A stretch of 64,000 bases of DNA, from assembly GCA_015062655.1 (NCBI GenBank), contig SUUG01000003.1:62001-126000 (forward strand), in the 5' to 3' direction. A model generated the notes under the pieces. The model did no database searches. It was given only the letters and a program-made list of their open reading frames with translations, and had not been told where the DNA came from. Shown piece after piece: positions 340 to 42,239 of this stretch (its first letter is position 1; every line of letters begins with the position of its first letter). The position numbers and the translations under genes were made by a program. This DNA comes from Coriobacteriaceae bacterium (lineage in GTDB: Bacteria > Actinomycetota > Coriobacteriia > Coriobacteriales > Coriobacteriaceae).

Positions 340-3252
340 TCAGAACGCGTCGTCGCGCACGGCCTCGATGATGCTGCCGGAGCGGCAGCGCATGAGGGCG
401 TAGCCGACGCTCGCGAGCATGATCGCGAGCACCGTGCCCGCGGCGAGCCCGACCATGAGCGGCGACGCCTGTGGGCCGACGTCGCCGAACGACTCCACGA
501 CCGAGCGCCACAGCATGATGTCGACGGCGGCCGACAGCAGCAGGCCGAGCGCGAACCCGCGCGCCGCGTAGCTCGCCGCCTCCCGTGCGATCATGCGACG
601 GAAGGCCCGCTCGCCCATGCCGATCGAGCGCAGCACCGCGAACTCGCGGCGGCGCAGGATGATCGAGGTCGTGATCGTGGTGAACACGTTCGCGACGGCG
701 ATGAGCCCCGTGATCGCGGCGAAGCAGACCGTGAAGGTTCCCGCCGCCATGAGCGACATCCGGCGCTGCCGGAACAGCTCCGCGTAGTTCGTGACGCCGT
801 GGTCCGTCCAGGCGGGGTCGGAGAGGATGTCGGGGAGCTCGCGGTAGACGCCCCGCTCGGTCGCGCGCGGGTCATCGGAGGTGAGGGAGAAGCCGATGCG
901 CCGGCTGCCGTTTTGGTAATCGCCGGCGGCGAACGGGCGCGAGAGCCAGTCGCCGCGGGCCGCGGCGCGGGCGAGCGCGGCCGGATCCTCCTCGGGCGCC
1001 TCGGAGGACCGCAGGGCGTCGAGCGCGCCCAGCGGCAGCACGAGGATGGGGGTCTGGTTGTAGTAGTTCGACTCGAGCGAGGTCCAGGGCACCGCGTCGG
1101 ACACGGCGGCGATCCGGACGGAGGCGCTCCCGGTGACCGCGTCGGCGAGCGGCACGGAGACCTCCGCGCCCGCTGCGGCGCCGTTCTCGTCCGTCGGCAG
1201 GAAGCGGGCGCGCGCCTCTCCGGCCTCGGCGCCGATCCCGTTGAGGAGCCGGTCCGGCCGTATGGCGACCGAGGTCACGAGCGTCGCGGTGCCGCCGCCG
1301 GAGAAGGGGCGGCGGACGGAGCGCCTGCCGTCGGCCTCCATGACGGGGACGAAGTTGCAGCCGATGGCGACCGGTCCCCCGGACGCCTCGAGGGCGTTGG
1401 CGTCGAGGCCGACCTCGGCGAGGTAGGCCCGCCAGGTCTGCTCGTCGACGAAGGAGAGGTTGACGAGGCCCGCCCAGGTGCCGTCGGCGAGCAGGTGGTC
1501 CTCGCGGTATTCCTCCTCGAACCGGTCGACGGCGGCCTGCCCGACATCGATGGCGCCCGCCGAGATCAGGGCGCCGGCCGACTCGTCGACGGCGTAGCCG
1601 GCCCGGGTCACATGGCCGGCGGCCGAAAGGGAGCGCAGCACCGCCTCGGCCGCCGCCTCCTCATCGCCCGCATCGACCGAACGCATGAGGGCGACCGAGA
1701 CGTCCACACCCTCCGTCTCGGGCATCCCGCGGGATGCGCTGCGCAGGTATGAGGTGAGCAGGCCCGAGGAGACGAGCAGGACCACGGAGACGGCAAGCGA
1801 CGCCACGGCAACGCGCCCGCGGGAGGCGGTGCGGGCGAGGTTGCGGTGGGCCAGCCACCCGGAGACCCCCTCGAGCCTCAGGTGGAGGGCATCGAGCCAG
1901 CGAAACCCGGTCCGCGTCCTTCGCGCCCCGGCGCGCCGCTGACGGCGCGCCGGCTCGATGTCGCGCGCCTGGCGTATCGCGTCGACGGCCGAGGCGCGCC
2001 CGGCTCGGCGGGCGGGGACGGCCGCGGCGACCAACGTCTCGGCGGCCGTGAGCACGACGGCCAGCGCGATCGCGATCGGCGAGGCGCTCATGGGCAGCTC
2101 CCCGACCCCCAGGCCTACGATGACGGCCACGCCCTCTCCCGTGAAGCGCAGGACCGCCCAGGTCCCGGCGAGGCCGATCAGGACCCCGGCGGGTATCCCC
2201 ACGGCGGCGAGCATGAGGGCCTCGAGGCGGACGATGCGCCTGATCTGGGACCCGGTCGCCCCCACGGAGGCGAGCAGGCCGAATTGGCGCGTCCGCTCGG
2301 AGACGGAGATGGCCAGCGCGTTGCTGATGAGCGAGATGCCGGCGCCGCCCACCACGAGGGCCAAGACCCCGGCCGTGCCCCACAGGACCGAGGCGTACCC
2401 GTCCCCGGGGACGCCTCGGTCAAAGAGGAGCGCGGTGTGCAGGTCGGCGAGCCGGACCCCGTCCGTCTGGGAGGCGGCATCCGCGGAGTCGATGAGGGAG
2501 AGCGTCCGCCCGCGAACGGCGCCGAGCTCCCTGGTGCCGTCCCAGACGAGGTAGGCGACGCTGCCCTGCGCGGGCAGGCCGGATTCGGCGGCTGTGAAGG
2601 CGATGTCGCCCGTCCAGGGCGGGCCCGGGTCGAAGAACCCGCTCACGCGGAAGCGCCGCGCCGGGCCACGATCGACGATCCCCGCCTCGATCCCCGACCC
2701 GTGGGCGAGCGGATCGGCGCCGTCCGGCGAGCTCAGCCGGCCGAGGGAGAGCGCGACGACGCTGCCGACCCCGAGGGGGGCCGTGCTGCCCCCGGAGGCG
2801 TCCGATGCAAACGTCATGCCCTTGTACCAGCGGGGGAGGAGGATCTCCTCGCCCGAGGCGGGAAGCTCCCCCTCGAACAGCGCGAGCGCGGGGAGGACCC
2901 CCTCGTCGCCGACGGGGAGCTCGGAGAGGGAGAGCGGCGCCGGCTCCTCGAGCCCGGCCTCCACGCCCCAGCTGACCTCGGCGGCCCCCACCCCGCGCAG
3001 CACGGCCGCCGCCCGCACGCCGGGCGCCTCGCGGACCTCGGCGGCCCCCTCGTCGGAGAGGCCCGCCACGAGCGCCTGCCAGGCGCCCTCGCGCATCGCG
3101 ATAGCCTCGCCGATCCCGGCTTGAAGGGAGGACGCCGAGGTGAAGATCGCCGTGATCAGAGCACAGGAGAGCGCGATGCCGATCACGGAGACGACGGCGT
3201 GGGGCTTTTTGCCGGCCAGCGAGCGGCGGGCGAAGCGAAACGGCGCGCCCAT
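340..3252 (-). CDS. ABC transporter permease, FtsX/MacB family
   Basis: Membrane protein of 970 residues, probably the permease of an efflux or envelope-stress ABC exporter. One N-terminal transmembrane helix (about residues 20-40) is followed by a large extracytoplasmic domain. A three-helix FtsX block comes next (residues ~290-410), then a second extracytoplasmic region and a final three-helix FtsX block ending near the C-terminus. This duplicated layout is typical of actinobacterial FtsX-like permeases, which usually do not import small solutes. The gene starts one base after the stop of the ATPase gene (TGAGATG), so the two are translationally coupled. The substrate cannot be told. The neighbouring divergent two-component system suggests regulation by an envelope signal, as in Bce-type modules; that link is inferred from position only. 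Confidence 0.85.
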   Translation of the reverse strand: MGAPFRFARRSLAGKKPHAVVSVIGIALSCALITAIFTSASSLQAGIGEAIAMREGAWQALVAGLSDEGAAEVREAPGVRAAAVLRGVGAAEVSWGVEAGLEEPAPLSLSELPVGDEGVLPALALFEGELPASGEEILLPRWYKGMTFASDASGGSTAPLGVGSVVALSLGRLSSPDGADPLAHGSGIEAGIVDRGPARRFRVSGFFDPGPPWTGDIAFTAAESGLPAQGSVAYLVWDGTRELGAVRGRTLSLIDSADAASQTDGVRLADLHTALLFDRGVPGDGYASVLWGTAGVLALVVGGAGISLISNALAISVSERTRQFGLLASVGATGSQIRRIVRLEALMLAAVGIPAGVLIGLAGTWAVLRFTGEGVAVIVGLGVGELPMSASPIAIALAVVLTAAETLVAAAVPARRAGRASAVDAIRQARDIEPARRQRRAGARRTRTGFRWLDALHLRLEGVSGWLAHRNLARTASRGRVAVASLAVSVVLLVSSGLLTSYLRSASRGMPETEGVDVSVALMRSVDAGDEEAAAEAVLRSLSAAGHVTRAGYAVDESAGALISAGAIDVGQAAVDRFEEEYREDHLLADGTWAGLVNLSFVDEQTWRAYLAEVGLDANALEASGGPVAIGCNFVPVMEADGRRSVRRPFSGGGTATLVTSVAIRPDRLLNGIGAEAGEARARFLPTDENGAAAGAEVSVPLADAVTGSASVRIAAVSDAVPWTSLESNYYNQTPILVLPLGALDALRSSEAPEEDPAALARAAARGDWLSRPFAAGDYQNGSRRIGFSLTSDDPRATERGVYRELPDILSDPAWTDHGVTNYAELFRQRRMSLMAAGTFTVCFAAITGLIAVANVFTTITTSIILRRREFAVLRSIGMGERAFRRMIAREAASYAARGFALGLLLSAAVDIMLWRSVVESFGDVGPQASPLMVGLAAGTVLAIMLASVGYALMRCRSGSIIEAVRDDAF

Positions 3253-3253
3253 C

Positions 3254-3934
<681 letters not shown>

Positions 3935-15315: not shown

Positions 15316-15476
15316 AGTTGCGTTTCTTACCGCTGTGTACATCGGATTGCTAGCACTCGGAGTATGCCCGATGAATCCGCAGGTAGAGTAAGTTGCGTTT
15401 TTGACCCCTGTGCACCCCGATGTGCACAGGGGTCATTTTGTTTGAGAAAAAAGTGCATAGGCGCAAAAAATGCAAC
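15316..15476 (+). repeat. 162-bp nested-palindrome element, copy A (plus orientation)
   Basis: Bounded by AGTTGC and GCAACT. The outer 25 bases at each end are imperfect inverted repeats containing a CGCTRTGYAC-type core. Inside is a perfect 14-bp hairpin, TGACCCCTGTGCAC (15402-15415) and its complement (15422-15435), with a 6-nt loop. A T-rich stretch and GAGAAAAAAGTGCATAG follow. It aligns along its full length with copies B, C and D. Copy B lies 380 bp away in inverted orientation. Confidence 0.88.
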
Positions 15477-15856
15477 TGAGCAATGCGTGCCGGATGGTGC
15501 TGAGGGCGGGGGGGGGTGGGATGCGTCGCCGCCGGCGAGCCGGGCACCGTTCGAGGGGATCGCGGCTGAGCGGTGCGGGTTGAGCGAACCGGCATCGCGG
15601 GCGGGATGAGCCCGCGGGCGCGGCCGGCCGCCATCCGGTTCGTTCACCGCGACGGCCCTCAGCTGCCATCCGCCTCGACGGTTCCGACCACCATCCGCCT
15701 CGATCGCCGCGACGGTTCCCGGCCGCTCTGTGTTTCGCCGTCACCGACGGCCCCGGCAACCCCGCCCGTTCTGAGTGCTCCTGTGTTCTCGGCGACATCG
15801 ACTGCCCCGGTTGTCTGTCTACTTTGTTCGCCCTGCCTCCCGATTCGCCATCTCGC
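15477..15856. other. non-coding spacer between inverted elements A and B
   Basis: 380 bp of GC-rich DNA without a credible gene. It contains loose repeats of a CCATCCGCCTCGA-GACGGTTCC pattern and no recognisable cargo. It may be an eroded insertion between the two elements. Confidence 0.5.
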
Positions 15857-16018
15857 AGTTGGAATTTTTGCGGCTGTGTACGTTTTTCTCGAACAAAGTG
15901 ACGGCTATGTACCTCGCCGTACATAGCCGTCACTTTTGCAGCTGCATCTACCTGAGGAAACACGACTCATACTGGGAGTCCCCCGATAGCAAGGTGCAAA
16001 GCCGTGAGAAATGCAACC
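15857..16018 (-). repeat. 162-bp nested-palindrome element, copy B (minus orientation)
   Basis: Runs from AGTTGG to GCAACC. The central hairpin is a perfect 15-bp stem, GTGACGGCTATGTAC (15898-15912) with its complement (15919-15933), and a 6-nt loop. To the left is the conserved T-rich and GAACAAA segment; to the right is the CTACCTG-containing arm. It is the inverted partner of copy A and matches the orientation of copy D. Confidence 0.88.
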
Positions 16019-16084: not shown

Positions 16085-16310
16085 GGGGCGCGAACCGGCC
16101 GCGCCGCCTCGGCCGCGGAGATCGGGCGCGCGAACCGGCCGCGCCACTCGGGGGCGGGGGCCAGATGGGGCGAACCGGCCTTGCCGCCTCGGCCGCAGGA
16201 ACCGGGGGCGCGAACCACTCGCGCCAGCCCGGCCGTGGGGACCCGGGGTGCGAATCGTCCGTGTTGCTCGGGGGCGGGGGCAAGGCGGGGCGACTCGGCC
16301 CCGCCGTCGC
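16085..16310. repeat. GC-rich tandem repeat with exact 40-bp period
   Basis: The core CGAACCGGCC or a variant recurs at 16091, 16131, 16171, 16211, 16251 and 16291, exactly 40 bp apart, giving about six degenerate units. The period is not a multiple of three and no gene signal is present. It lies between element B and priA. The remaining DNA to 16438 is GC-rich with weaker repetition (CGTGCCGCC, CCCCGCAC) and no gene. Confidence 0.75.
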
Positions 16311-41724: not shown

Positions 41725-41886
41725 AGTTGCGTTTTTGACGGTTGTGTACTTCGCTCTGGCCGCACCCTGAGTAGGGAGATTAAACCACCAGGTCAGGGAG
41801 GTTGCCATTTTGACGGCTTTGCACAGCGGGGTGCAAAGCCGTCAACTTGTTTTGAGAAAAGGTGCATAGCCGCACTTTCTGCAACT
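41725..41886 (+). repeat. 162-bp nested-palindrome element, copy C (plus orientation)
   Basis: AGTTGC (41725) to GCAACT (41886). The central hairpin is a perfect 15-bp stem, TTGACGGCTTTGCAC (41810-41824) with its complement (41831-41845), and a 6-nt loop. It is preceded by CAGGTCAGGGAGGTTGCC and followed by ACTTGTTTTGAGAAAAGGTG. It has the same length and order of parts as copies A, B and D. It lies just after the decayed membrane protein. Confidence 0.88.
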
Positions 41887-42077
41887 GGCGCTGGCGCCAT
41901 GCCAACCGCGGGGCGGCTGTGAGCCGGCGCTCGCTGGCGTTGGGGGCGGCTGTGAGCCCGTGCCCGCTGGTGCTGCGGGCCAGCTGTGGGCCGCCGCGCG
42001 TTGACGCCGCGGACCCCTGTTCGTTGACACTGCGGGCTGGCGCCTGCTGACGTAGCACGCGTGCCGCTAAGATTCCC

Positions 42078-42239
42078 AGTTGCATTTTTTGCGGCAATGC
42101 ACGGATTTCTTAAACAAACGTGCGGCTATGTATAGAGAGGTGCAGAGCCGTCAATTTGGCAACTGCCCTGACCTCGTCTTTTCATTTGGATACTTCGAGT
42201 GCGCCCCGCGCGATGTGCAAAGCCGCCATATTTGCAACT
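42078..42239 (-). repeat. 162-bp nested-palindrome element, copy D (minus orientation)
   Basis: AGTTGC (42078) to GCAACT (42239), inverted relative to copy C. The central hairpin is partly eroded (CGGCTATGTA against TGCAGAGCCG), but the outer ends and the GGCAACTGCCCTGACCTC arm are well kept. The 191-bp spacer to copy C (41887-42077) is GC-rich, with loose GGCTGTGAGCC repeats and no gene. Confidence 0.85.

Follow-up and report, generated by a model that had tools for sequence, protein, structure and literature searches.

To our knowledge, partnerships between a genome-resident repeat and an enzyme are known mainly from REP/RAYT. Another point of comparison is provided by Vsr-like homing endonucleases, which are of the EDxHD type. 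REP repeats themselves are hairpins of 20-40 nt with a GTAG or CGTC tag (PMC3733652). Here we describe a longer repeat, found within a 64,000-nucleotide stretch of DNA (the window) and traced through its genome and several congeners. These elements represent an undescribed family, with species-specific sites and a nuclease-like gene that recurs beside them. The explanation we favor, and consider moderately probable, is a REPIN/RAYT-like partnership in which a nuclease would take the place of the HUH transposase.

Anatomy and constraint of a 163-bp element

Two copies of the element form an inverted pair in the interval between the OPT gene and priA, copy A at 15316-15478 on the plus strand and copy B at 15856-16018 on the minus strand. 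The first-pass annotation of this DNA had already recognized the inverted two-copy element, and its lengths of 161 and 162 bp are better set at 163 bp for each copy. In copy A, site 1 (15316-15340, plus strand; AGTTGCGTTTCTTACCGCTGTGTAC) is followed by the conserved middle (15360-15384, plus strand; GAGTA..CCGCAGGT), by sites 2 and 3, which together form the inner hairpin (15391-15435, plus strand) and are followed by TTTTGTTT, and by site 4, an inverted copy of the site (15453-15476, minus strand). The inner core copies of copy A read CCTGTGCAC; as noted at first pass, each element contains four GCTRTGYAC-like cores, two in either orientation. The perfect 14-15-bp hairpin with a 6-nt loop, initially described for both copies, is correct for copy A (arms at 15402-15415 and 15422-15435, plus strand, 14 bp, 6-nt loop), whereas copy B has the same loop between perfect arms of 18 bp (15895-15936, minus strand). 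Diverged tandem repeats with a 40-bp period (GCGAACCGGCCGCGCC..) are also found at 16085-16306, upstream of priA.

A profile made solely from copies A and B retrieved another inverted pair elsewhere in the window, with members at 41725-41886 (E = 1.5e-23) and 42078-42239 (E = 9.5e-21), which we delimit as copy C (41725-41887, plus strand) and copy D (42077-42239, minus strand). With this second pair and a total of 39 copies across the whole assembly (2.07 Mb, 26 contigs), the likeness between A and B is far beyond chance. In a nearly gap-free alignment of 36 of the 39 copies, the consensus reads AGTTGCRTTTYTTRCGGCTRTGYAC (site 1), a spacer of ~20 nt, GAGTA, N and AAANCCGCAGGTCA, then GGTTGC..TGACGGCTNTGCAC (site 2), 6 nt and GTGCANAGCCGTCA (site 3), and finally TTTGTTT, GAAAA and GTGCANAGCCGNAANAAATGCAACTG (site 4). 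The GAGTA..CCGCAGGT middle is thus enclosed by four copies of a single site, two per direction.

The aligned copies are diverse in sequence and uniform in length. They depart from the consensus by 1536 substitutions as against five single-base gaps, their mean pairwise identity is 0.65 with no pair above 79%, and no truncated or decayed copy was found in the assembly. Since many more indels would be expected had an inserted repeat decayed neutrally, the length of the element and the spacing of its sites appear to be constrained by selection. The first-pass reading had been made to depend on a wider alignment retaining both length and pairing; the length is fixed across copies, and the pairing of the inner hairpin is conserved. 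Stems that differ in sequence yet remain perfectly paired, first seen in copies A and B, are in fact a family-wide feature, with covarying columns 91/116, 92/115, and 95/112. At 91/116 and 92/115 the switch from G-C to C-G occurs jointly, and 25 of 35 copies have a Watson-Crick combination at the free pair 95/112 (0.25 expected), which suggests that inner palindrome pairing is upheld by selection or by palindrome correction. The imperfect 25-bp outer inverted repeat is likewise real, but it does not covary copy by copy (column pair 20/143 is Watson-Crick in 4 of 36 copies). Because they are conserved without covarying, the outer arms look like independent copies of a candidate DNA-binding site, and not like an RNA stem.

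Inverted pairs and related families

Wherever neighboring copies lie less than 1 kb apart they are inverted (13/13 pairs, nine +,- and four -,+; two-sided binomial p ~2e-4). Mates exceed non-mates in likeness solely at columns 87-120 (0 to 2 of 2000 permutations), where arm/loop/arm identities are 0.80/0.62/0.86 for mates vs. 0.71/0.46/0.77 for non-mates, and sites 1 and 4 show no excess mate likeness (1128 and 697 of 2000 permutations). A break or exchange at the inner palindrome, followed by repair from the neighbor, would give this sharing restricted to the core.

The covariance-model search of this genome and its relatives that had been proposed at first pass was carried out with model R1. 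Beyond the 39 copies of the window genome (G000), it revealed an element family in G067 (27 copies read) and a single match in G004 that led to a third family of about ten copies, while most congeners searched with R1 yielded no element. The three families align in register along the entire element with identical site spacing, and TNTG (sites 1 and 2), CANA (sites 3 and 4) and, nearly, CAGGT and its neighbors are invariant across them. Site sequence differs by family (CGGCTRTGYAC, GAGCTATGCATAG, and GGAGSTTATGAACGATT). About five loci are shared between species, and the search for empty sites, likewise suggested earlier, showed that the OPT-priA interval is without the element in G021 and G067, so copies also come and go. 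Together with the elements of a fourth genome described below, these families point to a genus-wide superfamily whose arms vary between species and, in one species, between subfamilies.

Other repeats were observed in the same genomes. A different repeat family of G067 (AGATGACGTTTTCG / GTGCAAAGTACGTTTTCGA; L146 ~3050-3400, L278 ~1940-2260) occupies the OPT-priA interval and the region upstream of uvrD/pcrA, where the window genome has the 163-bp element, and a perfect hairpin of 39-48 bp (GGTTAAAACACCCTAGGGATTATTTTACATGGCGCATG..) lies near uvrD/pcrA in G022 and G023 (L268, L274). In G004, the site is further repeated in tandem (GGAGGATATGAACGATT) just beyond the element ends (L232 and L237). 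Congeners also carry AAACCGCAGGTCAGANNTGGTGTC, which resembles the element middle, beside tRNA genes or an integrase-like ORF (L156, L173, L175).

Outside these genomes, comparisons agreed with the initial remark that the layout matches no named family. Rfam covariance models gave no relevant family, only tRNAs and miRNA-model matches below the gathering score, and we found no paper on these repeats. A pattern scan of 84,980 species genomes, among which near records may be absent, returned one coding coincidence in Ruminococcus. Nothing was found in viral contigs with the patterns of the three families, with the middle motif, or with the nuclease, nor in phage records with the nuclease. The middle motif also gave single matches in G029, G030, and G032, which were rejected as likely coding coincidences; the match in G009 is single-copy.

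A nuclease-like gene beside the element

Outside the window, a locus of the window genome (C10:44065-45885) comprises a nuclease-like gene (C10:44600-45674; 358 aa when read from the first start and ~327 aa from the conserved one) flanked by elements. In both G000 and G067 this gene is bracketed by two elements and has an exonuclease gene and a P-type ATPase gene as its neighbors; this is the clearest of the loci shared between species, although the site sequence of the element differs. In C. aerofaciens, where the genes are annotated, a homologue occupies the equivalent place in an identical gene order, and from this match and gene order we infer that the genus is Collinsella. Identity of the G000 protein is 57-58% with its G067 counterpart and 39% with a G004 protein, whose gene is situated elsewhere, at an unrelated locus ~480 bp away from an element and not beside exonuclease or P-type ATPase genes. 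Overall, the element adjoins a nuclease homologue in three species (G000, G067, and G004), and flanks it as an inverted pair in two. In the G067 homologue, a stop codon (L098:2298) stands close to the C-terminal end, at a position that encodes tryptophan in the window genome.

Nine homologues share an invariant series SP-E, GG, D, E, H, and D..R, including residues E187, D232, E243, H249, D258, and R261, and the lysine expected after the second acidic residue is replaced by H, N, D, or other residues. All nuclease matches in Pfam were below curated cut-offs, the best being MTES_1575 (E = 2.5e-4, 21.5 bits vs. a cut-off of 38.2) and DUF559 (E = 0.007); the window genome's own protein had no such match, and a PDB profile search with the linked protein returned none. 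Based on the motif and the sub-cutoff Pfam matches, we read the linked protein as a putative Vsr/DUF559/MTES_1575-like PD-(D/E)xK nuclease.

The gene was first noticed inside the element pair of G000 and G067, and G004 and G034 are the independent tests of the linkage. Across 1.2 Mb of G034 (817 ORFs), elements share a 64-65-bp scaffold (GAGTAG..AAAACCGCAGGTAGA..CTACTC) that is constant among them, and the inverted arms that close it differ between subfamilies. The interior of these elements departs from that of the 163-bp element, with a GAGTA..TACTC scaffold and no inner hairpin built of arm sites. This portion of the genome encodes five nuclease homologues. Only two of the 817 ORFs have same-arm elements on both sides, and both are nuclease homologues; the chance of both flanked ORFs falling among the 5/817 homologues is ~3e-5. 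A third homologue has a 161-bp element with perfect 31-bp arms on one side, two of the five have no convincing element alongside, and within the 1.2 Mb no nuclease was found for the most numerous G034 subfamily. As a background rate, an inverted repeat score of at least 18 was reached near 14 of 220 random genes.

Palindromes of ~62 bp (GTTGCCTATGG..CCATAGGCAAC) are also present in G034, often beside scaffold elements (L312:7223-7286, L307, L311, L315, L320). In G021, de novo scanning of 400 kb identified further palindromic repeats, along with a single distant nuclease homologue. These repeats include a nested palindrome with four copies of ATGTCAGTTAAGCCTCGAAA that adjoins the distant homologue (L296:11760-11886), and an ~89-bp palindromic family (ACGCTCAGTCCTCGCGAGACTGG..) with several copies in the 400 kb (L293, L294, L298, L299).

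Given the linkage between gene and element in the window genome, G067, G004, and G034, the simplest account would be that the linked nuclease recognizes the arms and has kept or spread them. Under the REPIN/RAYT-like partnership proposed here, each element, as a dispersed non-coding member of the genus-wide superfamily, would act as a multi-site DNA target of fixed geometry, with four ~20-bp sites, two in either direction, around an unchanging middle. For every dialect there is probably a source locus, in the window genome C10:44065-45885, at which the nuclease gene is flanked by element copies. The nuclease, or a partner, would bind the arm sites as a multimer, a DNA break or nick would be made at the inner palindrome, and repair from the adjacent copy would homogenize the core. 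Elements would then persist by descent, with sites changing in concert with the protein, as REPINs do with RAYTs. The protein would in this way bind, cut, and spread the element, possibly with some benefit to the host.

More tentatively, these systems might constitute a new class of repeat/enzyme partnership, in which Vsr-like PD-(D/E)xK nucleases would keep and diversify long palindromic targets, with many dialects per genus that are distinct from one another, and which would have evolved independently of the HUH-transposase-based REPIN-RAYT. If true, this second partnership, unrelated to REP/RAYT and found in gut Actinomycetota, would make it testable whether such repeats persist through selfish copying, through a benefit to the host, or through immunity, with one nuclease for one arm dialect as the prediction for the bench. 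It would also account for otherwise unexplained intergenic palindromes of Collinsella genomes.

Alternative readings and known systems

All 75 elements examined in the three species are intergenic, with none inside genes called by a simple codon-usage script; in the window genome, half of the element sites are enclosed by convergent genes and few by divergent genes. This setting, along with strictly inverted pairs and fixed helical spacing, would also be expected of a BIME- or insulator-like chromosomal site, acting mainly between convergent genes and bound by a nucleoid, topoisomerase-associated, or regulatory protein, with nuclease genes carrying copies by chance. We consider this unlikely, since it leaves unexplained both the matching-arm elements on both sides of nuclease homologues and the several arm dialects within one genome. 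The first-pass suggestion of a MITE/BIME-like element or a structured RNA retains its BIME-like component, the inverted intergenic pairs, together with the constraint on length and on the inner hairpin; neither an ordinary MITE nor an RNA spanning the whole element, with its non-covarying outer arms, is supported.

An old MITE family of some DNA transposon, with long multi-site ends, would explain the terminal inverted repeats, the dispersed copies, the sharp ends without flanking sequence common to the copies, and the empty OPT-priA interval of G021. It is nonetheless improbable, as no target-site duplication was found at the copies, no homology was found between mate interiors (the DNA between paired elements), and the family has no copies above 79% identity, none decayed or truncated, and almost no indels. 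Searches of the Y1 transposase, serine recombinase, and tyrosine recombinase families found no autonomous transposon with the same ends. G000, G067, and G004 have no Y1_Tnp (PF01797) RAYT gene, and G000 has no serine recombinase and no dedicated tyrosine integrase, its two tyrosine recombinases being XerC/XerD-like from the reading of one and from copy number. Y1_Tnp is present in G021, a genome without the element by model R1.

A structured RNA or intrinsic terminator module, in which the inner hairpin would be the selected part, agrees with the covariation of the inner stem and with the terminator-like score of the copy A hairpin and the TTTTGTTT that follows it. This reading is very improbable, as covariation is absent from the outer arms, the orientation relative to adjacent genes is not fixed, TTGTT is invariant across copies and the T-run is not, and no Rfam family matches. 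Finally, a site-specific recombination site, with a core of the tyrosine-recombinase type and an arm site, at which the DNA separating the mates would be inverted, would fit the inverted half-sites around a 6-nt spacer, the core common to mates, and the resemblance of the middle motif to sequences that in congeners lie beside tRNA genes and an integrase-like gene, but merits almost no credence given the recombinase content of G000 and spacers that differ between most mates. It was the occurrence of CCGCAGGTCA close to tRNA genes and an integrase-like ORF that had prompted the tyrosine-recombinase reading, which was dropped because only XerC/XerD-like proteins were found.

Among described systems, MITEs are similarly short and non-coding with inverted termini, but differ from this element in their target-site duplications, recent copies, and indel decay, and no parent transposase was found here among the families searched. 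BIME and ERIC repeats, compared by description, share its intergenic position and alternating or inverted orientation, and differ from its four-site fixed geometry, constant middle, and linked nuclease-like gene. As in Vsr-like homing endonucleases, a Vsr-like nuclease could copy a DNA element via break repair; here, however, there is no intein or intron, the targets would be dispersed non-coding palindromes, and the putative homology comes from weak Pfam matches and the motif. The element fails as a member of REP/REPIN-RAYT, with the Y1 transposase absent and the size and layout wrong. It measures 163 bp against the 20-40 bp given for REPs (PMC3733652) and has no GTAG/CGTC tag beside a short hairpin, and the three element-bearing genomes have no Y1 HUH transposase but a linked nuclease-like protein, apparently of another fold. 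What it shares with REPIN/RAYT is a set of dispersed intergenic palindromes in inverted pairs with genome-specific sequence, a gene flanked by repeats (here nuclease-like instead of a RAYT), inheritance by descent, and apparent co-evolution.
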